From NCBI GenBank assembly GCA_016124315.1, contig WGNW01000001.1:62001-126000 (forward strand): DNA of 64,000 bases. The letters are read 5' to 3'. Position numbers and translations under genes: made by a program. The notes under the pieces were generated by a model that was not told the DNA's origin, did not search any database, and saw only the letters and a program-made list of their open reading frames with translations. Shown piece after piece: positions 3,973 through 11,927 of this stretch (position 1 is its first letter; every line of letters starts with the position of its first letter). Origin of the DNA: Alphaproteobacteria bacterium (GTDB lineage Bacteria; Pseudomonadota; Alphaproteobacteria; SMXS01).

Positions 3973-6243
3973 GTGCGGATGCGGACGCTCTATCTCCTGG
4001 CCTGGACCGTCGTCGCGGCGACCCTTGCGCTCGCCGGCTGCGGCGACCAGCACCGCCCGATCAACGGCGTCGAGGATTTGCGCGAGGCCAGGATCGGCGT
4101 GATGACCGGCTCGACCGGCGAGGCCGCCGCCAAGGAGCGCTTTCCCCAAGCGGACATCAAGAGCTTCGACGATATCATGGACGCGGTCGCCGCGGTGAAG
4201 TCGGGCCAGCTCGACGCCATCGTCACCGCCTATCCCACCGCCGTGCAGGTGTCGAAGAAGAATGCCGGATTCCGCATCCTGGATGAGCGGCTGACCGACG
4301 AGAACACCTCCATCGCCATCCGCAAGGGCAACCCGGAACTGCTGGCCGCGGTGAACAGGATCATCTCCGACCTGCGGGCCGACGGCACGCTGGCCGACAT
4401 GAAGCGGCGCTGGCTGAAGCCCGACCTCAGCCCCTACGAGGAACTGGACATCAAGCTGCCGACCGAGGGCAAGCCGCTGCGCATCGGCGTCGCCGCCACC
4501 CGCGAGCCGTTCAGCTTCGTCGACAAGGACGGCCGGGTGACCGGCCACGACGGCGAGCTGGCGCGGCTGATCGCCGCCCGGCTCGGCCGGCCGATCCAGT
4601 TCTACAACATGAAGTTCATGGCGCTGATCCCGGCGCTCCAGTCGGGCAAGGTGGACATGATCGTCACCGGCATGACCGCCACCGACGAGCGCCGCAAATA
4701 CGTCGACTTCACCCAGTCCTACTTCGCCAACGCCCAGGTGGTACTGACCCGCAAGACCGCCGCAGAGGCGGCGACGGCCGACGCGGGCGGGCTCGAGCTC
4801 ACCTCGCCGGCCGATCTCGCCGGCAAGCGCATCGGCGTGCTGCTGGGCTCGGCGCAGGTGCCCTATGCCCAGAAGAACTACGCGGGCGCCACCCTGCTGC
4901 AGTACCAGAACTTCTCGGACCTGGTGCTGGGCGTCACCAGCGGCAAGGTCGATGCCGCTCTCTACGACGAAGACTCGCTGCACGACGTGCTGCGGGACAA
5001 CCCGCAGCTCGGCACCCTGAAGCAGCCGCTGTTCTCGTCCGACGTGGCCGCCGGGTTCAACAAGGGCAACGGTGCGCTGCGCGACCGCTTCAACGCTTTC
5101 CTGGCGCAGATCCGCGCCAACGGCGTCTACGACGACATGGTCGACCGCTGGATCACCAGGCGCCAGCAGGACATGCCCGACATTCCCATGCCGGATACGG
5201 ACGACACGCTGACCATCGGCACCACCGACGGCGGCTTTCCCTTCGAGACGGTCAAGAACAACGAGCTGGCGGGCTTCGACATCGAGATGGGCGAGCGCTT
5301 CGCCGCCAGCCTGGGCAAGCGGGTGAAGTTCGCCAACATGGAGTTCGGCGCCCTGATCGCGGCGGTGGCGAGCGGCAAGGTCGACATGATCACCGCCTCA
5401 ATCTTCATCACCCCGGAGCGGCAGAAGCGCATCGACTTCTCCGATCCCTACTACAAGACCTCCACCCTGGTCCTGGCGCTCAAGTCCAACATCGCCGGCA
5501 GCGGGGTCGAGGCGGCGTCCGCGCCGACGCGCCAGCCCGGGTTCCTGGAAAGCGTCGCCGACAGCTTTCAGAGCAACATCATCCACGAGAAGCGCTACCT
5601 GCTGATCCTGGAGGGCCTCAAGGTCACCGTCATCATCTCGGTGCTGGCGACGCTGCTGGGCACCGCGCTGGGCGCGCTGATCTGCTTCATGCGCATGTCG
5701 GGCAGCCCGCTGCTCAACGTGCCGGCCAAGGGCTACATCTCGGTGCTGCGCGGCATGCCGGTGCTGGTGCTGCTGATGCTGATCTACTACGTGGCGTTCG
5801 CCTCGGTGAACATCAGCCCGGTGCTGGTGGCAGTGATCGCCTTCGGCATGAACTTCGCCGCCTACGTTTCGGAGATGTACCGCACCGGCATCGAGAGCAT
5901 CGACCGGGGCCAGTCGGAAGCGGGCGTCGCCATGGGCTTCACCAGGGTGCAGGCGTTCGTCCACATCGTGCTGCCGCAGGCCGTCCAGCGCATCCTGCCG
6001 GTCTACAAGGGCGAGTTCATCTCGCTGGTGAAGATGACGTCGATCGTCGGCTACATCGCCGTGCAGGACCTGACCAAGGCCAGCGACATCATCCGCAGCC
6101 GCACCTTCGACGCGTTCTTCCCGCTGGTGATGGTGGCGATCCTCTACTTCCTGATCTCGTGGGGGCTGATGCAGTTCCTCGGCCACCTGGAGCGGACGAC
6201 CGATCCCAAGCGGCGGCGCCGCAAGGCGAGGAGGGCGTCGTGA
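3973..6243 (+). CDS. Polar amino-acid ABC importer: lipoprotein substrate-binding domains fused to permease
   Basis: About 756 residues. GTG 3973 is chosen because GAGGGGGG ends eight bases upstream; ATG 3979 is the alternative. A lipoprotein signal ends in LALAGC. Next come a half substrate-binding (SBP_bac_3) unit carrying only the DLREARIGV...[10 protein letters not shown] portion (about 29-153), a complete SBP domain (about 159-396), and another half unit with only the first part, [12 protein letters not shown]...[21 protein letters not shown] (about 409-506). A HisM/GlnP-type permease follows (about 539-740, with the EAA-loop-like [11 protein letters not shown]). The two halves could together make a second binding domain. 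GlnP of Lactococcus is a known SBP-SBP-permease fusion, but with complete domains. The gene overlaps its ATPase by four bases. Confidence 0.88.
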
Positions 6244-7334
6244 TCGAGGTCGAGCACCTGTCGAAGCGGTTCGGCGACCTGGTGGTCCTCAAGGACATCA
6301 ATGCCGTGATCAGCAAGGGCGAGGTCGTCTCGGTCATCGGCCCGTCCGGCACCGGCAAGAGCACCTTCCTGCGCTGCCTCAATCTGCTCGACCGGCCGAG
6401 CGGCGGCCACATCCGGGTCGACGGCGTCGACATCCTCGACCCGAAGGCCGACGTCGCCCAGGTGCGCCAGAAGATGAACATGGTGTTCCAGTCGTTCAAC
6501 CTGTTCGCCCACCTGTCGGTGCTGGAGAACCTGACGCTGGCGCCGATCCGGCTGAAGGGCGAGAAGAAGGCGGCCGCCGAGGCGCGGGCGATGGACCTGC
6601 TGCGCCTGGTGGGCCTGGGCGAGAAGGCGGCCGCGTTCCCGGACGAGCTGTCCGGCGGCCAGAAGCAGCGCGTCGCCATCGCCCGGTGCCTCGCCATGGA
6701 GCCGGAGGTGATCCTGTTCGACGAGCCTACCTCGGCACTCGATCCCACCATGGTGAGCGAGGTGCTGGCGGTGATCCGGCGCCTTGCCCGCGACGGCATG
6801 ACCATGGTGATCGTCACCCACGAGATGGATTTCGCCCGCGACGTCTCCAACCGCGTGTTCTACATGGACGAGGGGCTGATCTACGAGGAGGGGCCGCCCG
6901 ACCAGCTCTTCGACGACCCGCGCAAGGAGAAGACGCGGGCGTTCATCAACCGCACCCGCAGCTACCGCCGCCACGTCGGCTCGCCCGACTACGACCTCTA
7001 TGCCATCCACGCGGAGATCGACGCGTTCTGCGAGAAGCACGTGCTGTCGGCCAGGGCGCGCTACAACCTGCAGCTCCTGACCGAGGAACTGCTGCAGCTC
7101 CATGCGCCCTATCTGGCCGGCGGCGGCGCCCTCGACCTGACCGTCGCCTATTCGGAGAAGACCGGCAACGTGGAGATCGTCTTCGAGGCCGACGGCGACG
7201 CGGGCAACCCGCTGGAGCAGACGGGCCAGGAGGACGACCTCGCCGCCGTCATGATCCGCCACGCCTCCGAGAGCGTCGCCTATGCGGTGGCCGGTGGCCG
7301 CAGCCGGCTGGAGATCCTGGTCAAGGCGGCGTAG
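6240..7334 (+). CDS. Amino-acid ABC transporter ATPase (GlnQ/HisP-like) with a HATPase-like C-terminal extension
   Basis: Protein of 364 residues. GTG 6240 overlaps the permease stop (GTGA) and follows AGGAGG, so the two are translationally coupled. Residues 1-240 are a standard polar amino-acid ATPase: Walker [11 protein letters not shown]-loop FQSFNLF, signature [15 protein letters not shown], Walker [13 protein letters not shown] and the switch His in IVTHEM. Family members end near residue 245. Here about 120 more residues follow. Their [24 protein letters not shown] and [15 protein letters not shown] order resembles the anti-sigma-kinase type HATPase fold, but without its N-box Asn and DxGxG loop. 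That assignment is inference. The stop lies one base from the convergent P450 stop. Confidence 0.9.
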
Positions 7335-7335
7335 C

Positions 7336-8493
7336 TCAACGCTTCGTGCGTACCGGCAGCTTGCGGCGGCCCCAGAACAGGAACGGCCCGATGCGTTCGC
7401 CGTCGCCCAGCAGTTCGAGGTCGGGGCAGCGCCGCCGCAGCGCCTCCAGCGTCACCTCGGCCTCCAGCTTGGCCAGTTCCGCGCCCAGGCAGAAATGGAT
7501 GCCCAGGCCGAAGGAGAGGACCTTGCGGGCCGGCCGCCTCGGGTCGAAGACGTTCGGCGCGTCGAAGGCGTCGGGATCGCGGTTGGCGGCGGCGTAGTGG
7601 GTCAGCACCTTGGTGTGCGCCGGAATGATGGTGCCGCCGATCTCCACGTCGCAGGCGGTGGTGCGGAACAGGCCGAGCAGCGGCGGGTCGAACCGCAGGC
7701 TTTCGTTGATCGCCCGCTTGACGTCGATGTCGCCGGCGCAGAACGCCCGCCACAGCCCGCCGTCGGCCAGCATCCGCCACATGAAATTGGTGATCAGCGA
7801 GGTGGTGGTCTCGTTGCCGGCGACGAAGAGCTGCAAGGTGAGGCTGACCGCCTCCTCGTCGCTGATCGGCTCGCCGTCGCGCCGCGCCTGCGCGATCCGG
7901 GCCAGCAGGCTGCGGTCGCCCATGTCGTCCCGCTTGCGGTGGAGGAGGTCGAGGATGTAGCCCTGCATCCGCATCAGCTCGGCCGCATAGGCCGTCGGGT
8001 CCTGGGCCGACAGCGCCGCCACCGACGCGTCCGACCACAGCTTGAACTGGCGGATGTCGTCGGTGGGGATGCCGAAGATCTCGCAGATGATGGTGACGGG
8101 CAGGGGAAAGGCGAGGTCGTCGTGCAGGTCCCAGCCGTCACGGCCTTCCACCGCGTCCAGCAGTTCCTCGGCGATCGCCTCCAGCCGCGGCCGCAGCAGC
8201 GCGATGGCGCCGGGCTTCAGGTCGTCCTGCACGAGGCGGCGGAAGAAGGTGTGGTAGGGCGGGTCGGAGACCACGCCGATGGCGGGCACGAAGTTGGGTC
8301 CCTGGCCGTGGCCGCTGAGGAAGCGGGCCGGATCGAGCAGCGCCGCGCTCACGTCCCTGTAGCGGGACAGCACGTAGAACGGCGGATCGAAGCCCTCGTA
8401 GAGCCTGGCCCTGTCGCCGGACAGCAGCCGCGCGGCGGACACCGCCGGATCGGCCATCTCCTCCGCGCCCATCAGATCGAGCATGTCCTCCAC
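7336..8493 (-). CDS. Cytochrome P450 (first of three)
   Basis: Protein of 385 residues, the usual length of soluble class I bacterial P450s. The I-helix reads LFVAGNETTTSLI, the K-helix has ESLRFDPP, and the heme loop FGLGIHFCLGAELAKLEA puts the thiolate ligand at Cys335. It catalyses monooxygenation and would need a ferredoxin and a ferredoxin reductase, neither of which is encoded nearby. It lies downstream of the MBL-fold hydrolase on the same strand (65-bp gap), so they may be co-transcribed. Substrate not predictable. Confidence 0.9.
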   Translation of the reverse strand: MEDMLDLMGAEEMADPAVSAARLLSGDRARLYEGFDPPFYVLSRYRDVSAALLDPARFLSGHGQGPNFVPAIGVVSDPPYHTFFRRLVQDDLKPGAIALLRPRLEAIAEELLDAVEGRDGWDLHDDLAFPLPVTIICEIFGIPTDDIRQFKLWSDASVAALSAQDPTAYAAELMRMQGYILDLLHRKRDDMGDRSLLARIAQARRDGEPISDEEAVSLTLQLFVAGNETTTSLITNFMWRMLADGGLWRAFCAGDIDVKRAINESLRFDPPLLGLFRTTACDVEIGGTIIPAHTKVLTHYAAANRDPDAFDAPNVFDPRRPARKVLSFGLGIHFCLGAELAKLEAEVTLEALRRRCPDLELLGDGERIGPFLFWGRRKLPVRTKR

Positions 8494-8558
8494 CGCTTTC
8501 TGTCGACCCCGCCGCCACTGTCGACGTTCCGGCGGAAGCGGTCAAACGATGCGTGCCG

Positions 8559-9284
8559 TCAAGGCGCCAGCGCGCCGGCCAGTTCGCGCAGCAGCGCGCC
8601 GCCGTTGCCCTGCCAGGCGCTGCCGTGCATGCAGGCGAGGGTCTCCGGCCCGGTGTCGGCGAGGCGGTCCAGCACGGCGCCGGTGTTGGGGCCGAGGGCG
8701 TAGTAGTCCATGACCCGGCGGAACTCCTGGCTCGGCGTCAGGATGTCGCCTTCGGTGAGCGGCGTGGCGCCGGTGCCCGGCTGGGTGAACAGGTCGCCGC
8801 AGAACAGGGTGCGCGTGGTCTCCTCGAACAGGTAGCCGCATTCCCAGCCGTGCGGCACGTGGGGCGCGTCCATCCAGCGGAACCGGCGGCCGCCCAGGTC
8901 CACGGTCTCGCCGTCGGCGAGCACGCGGGGCGGCCGGTCGGCCAGGTCGCCGATGGAGACCATGGCGGCGACGCTGCCGCACAGCGGTGCGGCATGGGGT
9001 GCCACCGCCAGCCACTGGTTGAGGGAGCCGCATTCGTCCGCCTCGACGTGGGAGAACGCCACGTGCCGCAGCCCGTCGAGGGGCAGCACATGCGCCACGG
9101 CCGCCTGCACCTGCGGGAACAGCTGGCGCGGCCCGGTGTGGAACAGCAGCGGCTCGTCGCCGGCCACCAGGTACTGGTTGAAGGAGAAGGCGGTGCCGGG
9201 GATCTCCACCGGCGTATTGATGCGGTAGATACCGTCCGCGATCTCGTGGACGTTGGTGCCCGTGGCCGAATCGATCACCGTCAT
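8559..9284 (-). CDS. MBL-fold metallo-hydrolase with flavodiiron-type metal motif
   Basis: Protein of 241 residues. It opens like flavodiiron oxidoreductase domains (GIYRINTPVEIPGTAFSFNQY). The first metal motif is HVEADEC, giving H79-x-E81-x-D83, the pattern of di-iron ODP domains rather than the HxHxDH of zinc hydrolases. Further ligands are seen in APHVPHG, FCGDLF and CMHGS. No flavodoxin domain follows, so it is a stand-alone ODP-like protein. Family functions include O2 or NO reduction and hydrolysis. Probably transcribed with the P450 downstream and divergent from the PQQ glucose dehydrogenase. Confidence 0.8.
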   Translation of the reverse strand: MTVIDSATGTNVHEIADGIYRINTPVEIPGTAFSFNQYLVAGDEPLLFHTGPRQLFPQVQAAVAHVLPLDGLRHVAFSHVEADECGSLNQWLAVAPHAAPLCGSVAAMVSIGDLADRPPRVLADGETVDLGGRRFRWMDAPHVPHGWECGYLFEETTRTLFCGDLFTQPGTGATPLTEGDILTPSQEFRRVMDYYALGPNTGAVLDRLADTGPETLACMHGSAWQGNGGALLRELAGALAP

Positions 9285-9413
9285 GGCGGATCTCCCGTTT
9301 CAGGTTGGGGGTGGTGGGACAATACCCCAGCCGGGGCCGCGCACCAATTCCTCCGGCGTCAGAACCAGCGGGCGGCTGGCGCGTTGACCGGGTGAAACGA
9401 GAGGCGGTTTTCC

Positions 9414-11927
9414 ATGGCAACCTACCGACGCGGCCCCGCGCTCCCGATCACGGCGGCCGTCCTCCTTCTCTTCGCCCTTGCCCTGCTCGGCGGCGGCGCG
9501 TGGCTCGTCGCCCTGGGTGGCTCCTGGTTCTACGCGGTCATGGGCGCGGCCCTGCTGGCGACCGCCGCGCTGCTGTTCGCCGGCAGCGCCGCGGCGCTCG
9601 GGGTCTATGCCGGCTTCCTGGCGGCGACGCTCGCGTGGTCGCTGTGGGAGGCCGGGCTCGACTGGTGGCCGTTGGCGGCGCGCGTCGGCCTGTTCTTCGT
9701 GGTCGGGCTGTTCCTGGTCATGCCGTGGGTCGCCGGCCGGCTGGGGCGCGTCCGCGACGGCCGGCCGCGCGGCGGCTGGTGGGGCGCCGTGCCGCTGGGT
9801 CTCGCGCTGCTCGCCTGCCTGGCCGTCGCGGTAGCGTCGTGGAAGACCGACCCGCACCGCATCGATGGCCGGGTCGTCCTCGGCTCGTCGGCGCCGGAAG
9901 GGGTCTCCGACATGCCTGCCGGTGACTGGTGGGCCTATGGCCGCACCGGGCTGGGCCGGCGCTACTCGCCCCTGGGCCAGATCACGCCCGAAAACGTCGC
10001 CCGCCTCAAGGTGGCGTGGCGCTACCACACGGGCGATGTGCCCGGCCAGCCGGGCGACCCGGTGGAGACCACCTTCGAGGTGACGCCGCTGAAGATCGGC
10101 AACCGGCTGTTCCTGTGCACGCCGCACCAGCAGGTGGTGGCGCTCGACGCCACCACCGGGCGCGAGGTCTGGCGCTACGAGCCGCGCCTGGAGGGCGACC
10201 TGGCGCTGCAGCACCTGACCTGCCGTGGCCTGTCCTACCATCCCGCCACGACACGGGCCGCGCCCGCAGACGCAGCGGCGACCGACGAGGCGGCCGCCGG
10301 AACGTCGCCCGGCGCGCCGCTCCCGCCGCTCGCCGTCGAAGAGGCGCCGTCTCCCCGGCCCGACCTGCCGGTGGCGGCCCGCGACGCCCCCACGGCGCCT
10401 TCCTGTACCGCCAAGCTGTTCCTGCCCACGGCCGACGGGCGGCTCATCGCTCTCGATCCCGAGAACGGCCGGGTCTGCGCCGACTTCGGCGACGGCACCG
10501 GCCAGATCGACCTGTGGCGCGGCATGCCCAACGTCGATCCCGGCGCGTACTATTCCACCTCGCCGGTAGTGGTGACGGCGCGGGAGGTGATCGTCGGCGG
10601 CAGCGTCCTCGACAACGTCTCCACCCACGAGACCTCGGGGGTGATCCGCGCCTACGACGTGGATACGGGCAAGCTGCTGTGGGCCTGGGATTCGGGCGAC
10701 CCGTCGCGCACCGTGCCGCTGGCGCCGGGCCAGACCTATACCGCCAACTCGCCCAACACCTGGTCCATCGCCAGCGTCGACGAGGGCCTGGGCATGATCT
10801 ACGTGCCGATGGGCAACCAGCCGCCCGACCAGTGGGGCGGCAACCGCAGCGCCGCCACGGAGCGGTTCTCCTCGTCCGTGGTCGCGCTCGATCTCGCCAC
10901 CGGGCAGGTGCGCTGGGTGTTCCAGACGGTCCATCACGACCTGTGGGACTACGACGTGCCGTCCCAGCCCGGCCTCGTCGACCTGCGCGTCGGCGACGCG
11001 ACCGTGCCGGCGCTGGTGCAGCCGACCAAGCAGGGCGAGATCTTCGTCCTCGACCGCCGCACCGGCACGCCGCTGCTGCCGGTGCGCGAGGTGCCGGCGC
11101 CGCAGGGCGCGGCCAAGGGCGACCACGCGGCGGCGTCCCAGCCCCGCTCGGCCCTCTCCTACGACCCGCCGCCCTTGCGGGGCAGGGACATGTGGGGCGC
11201 CACGGTGTTCGACCAGCTCGCCTGCCGCATCGCCTTCCATCGGCTGCGCTACGACGGGCGCTTCACGCCGCCCTCCCAGCAGGGCTCGCTGATCTATCCC
11301 GGCAATTTCGGCGTCTTCAACTGGGGCAGCGTCGCGGTCGACCCGGACCGCCAGATCGTGTTCAGCGCGCCGGCCTACCTGGCCTTCGTCTCCACGCTGG
11401 TGCCCCGCGACGACGACCGGACCCTCTACGTGCACGATCACGGTGCCCCGCCGGGCGCGCTGCCGGCGCTGAACGAGAACTTCGGCGCGCCCTACGCGGT
11501 GCGGCTCAAGCCGTTCACCTCGCCGATCGGCCTGCCCTGCCAGGAGCCGCCCTGGGGCTACGTCTCGGTGGCCGACCTGCGGACCGGCCGGATCGTCTGG
11601 ATGCACAAGAACGGCACGGTGCGCGACCGCTCGCCGCTGCCGCTGCCGTTCCGCATGGGCGTGCCCAGCCTGGGCGGGCCCATCGTGACGCGGGGCGGCG
11701 TCGCCTTCCTGTCGGGCACCATCGACTACTATGTGCGCGCCTACGACGTCGCCACCGGCAAGCAGCTGTGGCGCAGCCGGCTTCCGGCGGGCGGCCAGGC
11801 CACGCCCATGACCTACCGCGGCGCCGATGGCCGGCAATATCTGCTGGTGGTCGCCGGCGGCCACGGCTCGCTGGGAACCAAGACCGGCGACTCGGTGATC
11901 GCCTACGCCCTGCCGCCCGGCGGCTGA
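9414..11927 (+). CDS. gcd: Membrane-bound PQQ-dependent glucose dehydrogenase family protein
   Basis: Protein of 837 residues with the full Gcd layout: about five membrane segments in residues 10-145, then a periplasmic eight-bladed PQQ propeller. Recognisable blocks include DWWAYGRTGLGRRYSPLGQI, HLTCRGLSYH, SGVIRAYDVDTGKLLWAWD, MGNQPPDQWGGNR, FQTVHHDLWDYDVP, DMWGATVFDQLACR and the ending GGQATPMTYRGADGRQYLLV. It oxidises glucose or related sugars/polyols in the periplasm and passes electrons to ubiquinone. An Ala/Pro-rich insert of about 50 residues sits near 277-329, where the E. coli enzyme is much shorter. No PQQ biosynthesis genes are in the window. The 3' end overlaps the convergent FAD monooxygenase by 25 bp. 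Confidence 0.9.
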   Translation: MATYRRGPALPITAAVLLLFALALLGGGAWLVALGGSWFYAVMGAALLATAALLFAGSAAALGVYAGFLAATLAWSLWEAGLDWWPLAARVGLFFVVGLFLVMPWVAGRLGRVRDGRPRGGWWGAVPLGLALLACLAVAVASWKTDPHRIDGRVVLGSSAPEGVSDMPAGDWWAYGRTGLGRRYSPLGQITPENVARLKVAWRYHTGDVPGQPGDPVETTFEVTPLKIGNRLFLCTPHQQVVALDATTGREVWRYEPRLEGDLALQHLTCRGLSYHPATTRAAPADAAATDEAAAGTSPGAPLPPLAVEEAPSPRPDLPVAARDAPTAPSCTAKLFLPTADGRLIALDPENGRVCADFGDGTGQIDLWRGMPNVDPGAYYSTSPVVVTAREVIVGGSVLDNVSTHETSGVIRAYDVDTGKLLWAWDSGDPSRTVPLAPGQTYTANSPNTWSIASVDEGLGMIYVPMGNQPPDQWGGNRSAATERFSSSVVALDLATGQVRWVFQTVHHDLWDYDVPSQPGLVDLRVGDATVPALVQPTKQGEIFVLDRRTGTPLLPVREVPAPQGAAKGDHAAASQPRSALSYDPPPLRGRDMWGATVFDQLACRIAFHRLRYDGRFTPPSQQGSLIYPGNFGVFNWGSVAVDPDRQIVFSAPAYLAFVSTLVPRDDDRTLYVHDHGAPPGALPALNENFGAPYAVRLKPFTSPIGLPCQEPPWGYVSVADLRTGRIVWMHKNGTVRDRSPLPLPFRMGVPSLGGPIVTRGGVAFLSGTIDYYVRAYDVATGKQLWRSRLPAGGQATPMTYRGADGRQYLLVVAGGHGSLGTKTGDSVIAYALPPGG

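Follow-up and report, generated by a model that had tools for sequence, protein, structure and literature searches.

Probable tandem circular permutation of type II substrate-binding domains in a lipid-anchored ABC permease fusion

The protein encoded at positions 3973-6243 (plus strand) of the window, the 64,000-nucleotide stretch of alphaproteobacterial DNA analysed here, is very probably a lipid-anchored fusion of binding domains with a permease, in which two type II binding domains stand in tandem and each is circularly permuted, so that its C-terminal half (C) precedes its N-terminal half (N). The order of the halves in the sequence and the structure model of a unit agree in pointing to a natural circular permutation of the type II binding domain.

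Domain order of the window protein

The gene starts with GTG and encodes 756 amino acids, with an ATG at 3979 as an alternative start. The Pfam family SBP_bac_3 matches three stretches of the protein (3.3e-75 for the whole protein) and BPD_transp_1 matches residues 571-742. When the genome itself was searched, the three SBP_bac_3 matches covered profile positions 63-131 of 132 (32.1 bits; the second half), 1-131 (135 bits; the whole) and 1-97 (92.3 bits; the first half), each above the curated cut-off of 26.4 bits. In three PDB alignments, residues 30-149 correspond to the C-terminal half of amino-acid-binding proteins and residues 168-265 to their N-terminal half. On this evidence, a preliminary description of the gene as half-whole-half in SBP_bac_3 content was correct in both its coordinates and its content.

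We set the boundaries of the halves and of the permease from the profile and PDB matches, which gives the order C1 (residues 30-150), N2 (169-262), C2 (276-395), N3 (412-507) and permease (544-748). Directly ahead of C1, residues 1-23 (3973-4041) form a signal peptide ending in LAGC, which we take to be a lipobox from the general pattern of such motifs. C1 (4060-4422), assigned to class I in the clustering described below, comprises lobe 2 and the closing helices. It is joined to N2 (4477-4758), with its conserved Arg in TDER (residues 237-240), by an 18-residue junction (4423-4476) of near-constant length that is confidently built in the unit model. A 13-residue linker of low model confidence (4759-4797) leads to the second permuted unit, which consists of C2 (4798-5157), where the Asp of VDAALYD is kept, a 16-residue junction (5158-5205) and N3 (5206-5493). 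Residues 508-543 (5494-5601) connect this unit to the permease domain (5602-6216), which is of the HEQRo type (TIGR01726 at 74.6 bits, cut-off 42.2; BPD_transp_1 at 69.7 bits, cut-off 26.4). The gene for the ATPase (6237-7334, plus strand) overlaps the 3' end of the fusion gene. Residues 1-245 of its product are of the GlnQ type (ABC_tran at 118.4 bits; TcyN and GlnQ are the best models, each below its equivalog cut-off), and residues 246-365 form a putative RsbW-like, degenerate tail.

Both halves of the binding domains are homologous to SBP_bac_3 and the type II binding fold; the matches are to SBP_bac_3 and to amino-acid-binding proteins, not to type I or cluster B proteins, among the 60 of 284 PDB matches listed. 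Identity is 28% between C1 and C2 and 42% between N2 and N3, so the two units of the window protein diverged long ago. The open frame has 801 codons and thus at most 45 upstream of the start, which leaves no room before C1 for a missing N-half of about 94 residues. Chance is excluded as an explanation of the order, because three full-length orthologues from the same genus (66-68% identity) and relatives elsewhere keep it.

Relatives, array sizes and distribution

The preliminary description had suggested a search for other proteins with the same order, and these were found both in the genus and elsewhere. Among six same-genus genomes, both units are present in G002, G004 and G006 and one unit in G003, where the locus (L005) encodes C1-N2 followed by the permease; no unit was found in G001 and G005. 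A single pattern scan of a genome collection gave 53 loci, of which 51 are members (L084 and L085 are not); since the scan was built on the genus of the window, these 51 are a biased sample. With local profiles for both halves, frames with one unit ahead of the permease (CNT) number 9, those with two (CNCNT) 16, those with three (CNCNCNT) 16 and those with four (CNCNCNCNT) 7, and a further 23 frames are stand-alone C-N proteins. Four irregular frames (CNCN, NT, CNCT and C, one each) are explained by contig ends, a broken frame and one partial second C-half, the last in locus L074. The only NC frame among the scan results is the ordinary binding protein of L085, and an N-half comes first in a member frame solely in the second piece of the broken L070 gene.

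Of 75 member frames, 58 show a lipobox-like pattern ahead of the first half; among the 17 that do not, 13 carry a Cys no more than 15 residues upstream of that half. The second permease genes of L055, L061 and L073 have no lipobox. Those of L055 (8907-10472) and L073 (8976-10526) follow the main permease gene and encode one permuted unit each, which suggests a heterodimeric permease. The genome of L040 (Formimonas) carries a divergent (C-N)3-permease paralogue (L094, 1417-4470, minus strand), one of several copies in that genome.

The titles of member records name Gammaproteobacteria, Sphingomonadales, Geobacter relatives, Chlorobium, Ignavibacteria, Bacteroidetes, Verrucomicrobia, Bryobacterales, Bacillota and Hydrogenedentes; many of these genomes were binned from metagenomes, and some of the titles must be mistaken, as with a same-genus contig titled Kuenenia. 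Named strains include Methylobacter marinus (L041), Methylovulum miyakonense, Nitrosomonas communis (L052), Trichlorobacter thiogenes and Formimonas warabiya. At E <= 1e-45, a full-length profile found no further full-length member in 398 genomes of the window's phylum, its two hits being the window's own genome and one permease-only match. At E <= 1e-40, a unit profile matched 1 of 198 genomes in the phylum of G454 (G454 itself), 26 of 247 in the phylum of G458 (including G458 and G452) and 7 of 101 in the family of G451 (including G451, G457 and G459). By this unit-profile search, members are patchily spread. A plasmid search returned 2535 records, all below 60% identity, 24 of them with one place where joined pieces cover at least 80%; the annotated matches among the 30 listed are separate genes for ordinary binding proteins and permeases.

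Which halves belong together

The order C-N-C-N can be divided in two ways. The preliminary description was right that a circular permutation is involved. Its further suggestion, that a complete central domain could be enclosed by a domain assembled from residues 29-153 and 409-506, was not supported. On that reading residues 169-395 are a canonical whole domain, with N before C, around which C1 and N3 come together as the other domain. The order of the halves permits this, Pfam gives the middle as one full-length match, and arrays of 1-4 units can equally be written as outer halves enclosing 0-3 inner whole domains. A domain made of N2 and C2 would also, in the window protein, unite the carboxylate-binding Arg with the alpha-amino-binding Asp. 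The junctions, the inheritance of the halves and the way units are divided over genes argue against it.

C-to-N junctions in arrays are 16-21 residues long (sd 1.2, n=118), compared with 8-26 residues for the N-to-C junctions of members (sd 4.6, n=71), which are also richer in P, A, S and G (51% versus 37%). What would be the hinge of a central domain is thus a variable linker, as against 3 residues in the ordinary L085 protein, which is left out of the count of 71. The stand-alone proteins add 25 C-to-N junctions, two of them from the broken L070 frame, one of which is an artefact of -12. Junction length alone would not decide the pairing, since the part of the GlnPQ report available to us describes a short linker, of 14 residues, from C to N between canonical domains (PMC8025302).

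With k=5, clustering of C-halves and of N-halves, each on their own, put the two halves of a C-N unit in matching classes for 141 of 141 units, an adjusted Rand index of 1.0. With k=6 the index was 0.938 over the 141 units, and 0.911 within units of arrays against 0.26 for the wrap-around pairing (108 pairs each). Over 108 pairs from 39 arrays, the distance correlation was 0.93 within units and 0.42 for the wrap-around pairing, with at most 0.12 in 20 random re-pairings. Once the permease was controlled for, the 39 arrays gave partial correlations of 0.63, 0.95 and 0.89 for halves of the same unit, as against 0.08 for N1-C2 and 0.13 for C1 with the last N (controls 0.17 and 0.05). The 16 two-unit arrays alone gave 0.66 for C1-N2 and 0.87 for C2-N3, with N2-C2 (-0.10) and C1-N3 (-0.01) near zero. 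The nearest unambiguous C-N protein favoured the N-half of the same unit in 101 of 108 cases and the opposite in 7. Four sets of rows were dropped from the distance correlations, class clustering and partial correlations: L046 and the L082 frame at 6738 (contig end), L070 (broken frame) and the L074 frame at 6746 (partial second C). Further row sets were made without L046, L070, the L082 frame at 6738, L005 and the window's own units, save the query.

Gene structure points the same way. Proteins with a single unit exist in L005, in the 9 CNT frames and in the 23 stand-alone frames, and as each holds one C and one N, the only partner for the C is its own N, unless halves are exchanged between molecules; for the stand-alone proteins, such a domain-swapped assembly may occur. 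Locus L061 has a permease gene with a C-N unit of another class, followed by a class-I C-N unit in a gene of its own, so that the two halves of a supposed N2-C2 domain would lie on separate proteins. Together with the models described below, the distance correlations, class clustering and junctions led us to reject the wrap-around pairing, which we consider very improbable.

It could also be supposed that the window protein is a decayed GlnP-type tandem of whole domains that has lost its first N-half and last C-half, the leftover halves being non-functional. Loss at both ends of a canonical tandem gives exactly the order observed and may even be how the family arose, and the partial second C-half of L074 is in line with it. 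C1 and N3 have nevertheless kept their full length, and many of their columns are conserved in an alignment of 17 two-unit proteins; the TxxR Arg is retained in 141 of 141 units, and single C-N units persist and are modelled as one domain. We considered this explanation unsupported and regard it as hardly credible.

We therefore return to the permuted C-N unit. Co-inheritance shows that it is the evolutionary unit, and from this we infer that it is also the folding unit. Each C-N unit would fold alone as one two-lobed (Venus flytrap) domain, with a flexible linker connecting the two tandem units ahead of the permease. The chain would enter at lobe 2, return to lobe 1 via the closing helices and, after the junction of 16-21 residues, build the N-terminal half of lobe 1. 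Such units would be duplicated in tandem, lost or exchanged as a whole, giving arrays of 1-4 units or stand-alone proteins.

Structure models

AlphaFold2 predicts unit 1 (residues 22-264, 140 sequences) as one domain (pLDDT 95, pTM 0.88), and the blocks over the junction score 94-98. The rows of this alignment were C-N units, an input that favoured the C1-N2 pairing, and the pTM may be compatible also with folding of N2-C2 if that were cut out by itself. The 50 PDB chains listed include none that superposes well on the unit-1 model as a whole (best query TM 0.50), so that the whole arrangement rests on AlphaFold2 confidence. ArgBP overlays 84 columns of the model, about one half, at 1.0 A rmsd (rank 29). 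Both a half-length match and a poor overlay of the whole are expected of a permutation when the aligner is sequential. In the PDB profile search, C-then-N in one stretch occurred only in the tandem chains 6h30 and 4q0c, among the 60 of 284 matches listed.

The whole-protein model (17 sequences) is weak (pLDDT 74, pTM 0.39). Its C-N junction blocks score 77-90 and 83-86, its N-C linker blocks 54 and 64, and residues 168-395 are not built as a canonical domain. Single-domain binding proteins overlay it poorly among the 50 matches listed (target TM 0.32-0.48, rmsd 13-22 A). The arginine-binding proteins among them, ancestral ones and those of Thermotoga maritima, do no better (target TM 0.36-0.41, 13.7-15.2 A), and yet they are 31-36% identical to the window protein over 184-190 columns, an N-then-C identity that by our reasoning can only stem from N2-C2. 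With a pTM of 0.39 and a deduced query range, this overlay is by itself a weak argument against a canonical domain at residues 168-395.

Comparison with known systems

Tandem type II binding domains also occur in BvgS and EvgS, where they serve sensing, a likeness that consists of fold and profile matches; these proteins are histidine kinases without a permease, unlike the window system. Closer are the GlnPQ-type importers, in which, as in the window, tandem SBP_bac_3 domains are fused ahead of a permease that works with a separate ATPase. The GlnP fusions have whole domains in canonical N-then-C order, an arrangement absent from the window protein; the preliminary description had noted this difference, which our C-N-C-N assignment bears out. 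In the portion of the GlnP report available to us, the two tandem domains are equal in structure to isolated single domains (PMC8025302; PDB 6h30), whereas each unit in the window family runs C-then-N, units number 1-4 and the ATPase has an RsbW-like tail.

One tethered ABC binding protein already known to be circularly permuted in nature is TpMglB-2 (Tp0684), a glucose-binding lipoprotein for which, in the part of the report available, the designation 'Type Ic / Cluster Bc' was proposed and a possible link between permutation and membrane anchoring was raised (PMC4990184). It has the type I/cluster B sugar-binding fold and another cut point, in contrast to the type II SBP_bac_3 fold and the permease-fused arrays described here. 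Tandem GlnP fusions with ordinary domains and, as far as the accessible text of PMC4990184 goes, a permuted type I binding protein are thus known. Among the titles listed from the openly licensed literature, none showed a permuted SBP_bac_3 protein or an ABC ATPase carrying an RsbW-like tail. A permuted type II case, in modular permease-fused arrays of 1-4 units from records titled as several phyla, would be new beside TpMglB-2, the sole natural permutation that turned up in our literature search, its report seen in part. Models of canonical-order domains match permuted proteins piecewise, so the architecture is easily read as half-whole-half. Permuted arrays would serve as natural experiments on how hinge continuity and tethering affect the Venus flytrap.

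Ligand site and transport

In type II binding proteins the Arg of TxxR binds the carboxylate and the Asp of DAxxxD usually binds the alpha-amino group. The Arg is kept in all 141 units. At the Asp position, unit 1 of the window protein has Ala and unit 2 has Asp; in the family the Asp is present in 0 of 40 first units, 24 of 30 middle units and 20 of 39 last units, as well as in 1 of 9 proteins with an only unit and 16 of 23 stand-alone units. The first unit belongs to class I in 39 of 39 arrays. Its missing Asp indicates that the first unit is probably specialised, probably for another ligand or for a sensing or structural role.

Together with the permease and the ATPase, the Arg of TxxR suggests that the system imports amino-acid-like carboxylates. 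The units would bind such carboxylate-bearing ligands in their clefts and pass them to the shared permease, which would form a homodimer with the GlnQ-like ATPase. If the permease is indeed homodimeric, each transporter made from a two-unit protein would have four binding sites. In L045, the genes for the permuted permease and its ATPase are separated by a prolyl oligopeptidase gene (9338-11608), a hint that peptides may be the ligand.

ATPase tail and partner switching

The C-terminal tail of the window ATPase (6972-7331) has no Pfam match. Tails of about 120 residues are fused to the ATPase in 42 frames of relatives, and the fused tail of L065 matches HATPase_c_2 at 24 bits, under the cut-off of 27.4. 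A profile built from the tails also matches eight stand-alone proteins, and the two of these that were scanned are both strong HATPase_c_2 matches. The stand-alone proteins keep the Asn of what we take to be the N-box and the GxG of the presumed G-box, both of which the fused tails lack. Judging by these motifs and matches, we read the fused tail as a degenerate RsbW-like domain.

Anywhere in the stretch around the transporter, 26 of the 51 member loci have a STAS gene, 26 a SpoIIE phosphatase gene and 22 both, and 8 have a separate RsbW-like gene. Of seven SpoIIE phosphatases scanned, five have dCache and HAMP parts. In L055, L065, L066, L071, L073 and L074 the genes run in the order phosphatase, transporter, tailed ATPase, STAS and RsbW-like gene; L065 shows this row at 4017-9490, and the phosphatases of L065 and L073 have dCache and HAMP. 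The SpoIIE, STAS and HATPase_c_2 matches of these neighbours resemble Rsb-type partner-switching modules, with the difference that the ABC ATPase here carries a degenerate kinase-like domain as a fusion. Because the neighbourhood recurs, whether ABC transport is directly linked to partner switching can be tested.

Judged from gene content, the transporters of this family may plausibly be coupled to partner switching, the case being weakest for the window itself. The system might even be mainly a ligand sensor whose tail binds STAS, with transport secondary or lost, a matter of function and not of fold. The fused tails, the joint presence of SpoIIE and STAS genes, the sensory parts of the phosphatases and the six-locus gene order speak for a sensor. 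Against it, the tails lack the N-box Asn and GxG, the window tail is without a Pfam match, and the permease and ATPase appear intact. Moreover, neither a STAS nor a phosphatase gene was seen next to the transporter in L033 and L034, which are close relatives, or among the scanned window ORFs adjoining it, and the genome's own row of phosphatase, STAS and HATPase_c_2-type genes (L087, contig C75) is on another contig. We regard a mainly sensory role as conceivable, short of probable. Bolder, and in our judgement rather doubtful, is the proposal of a cross-phylum sensor-transporter built on permuted arrays, in which the tailed ATPase would feed nutrient occupancy into a SpoIIE/STAS/RsbW cascade and the permutation, leaving one hinge strand open and both ends tethered, would tune the flytrap.

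Two further gene arrangements were seen in member loci. An NMT1/THI5-like binding-protein gene precedes the SpoIIE phosphatase in L041 (2792-4042), with similar frames in 16 loci, and a frame of L077 (4294-5625, minus strand) matches both STAS and APH phosphotransferase.
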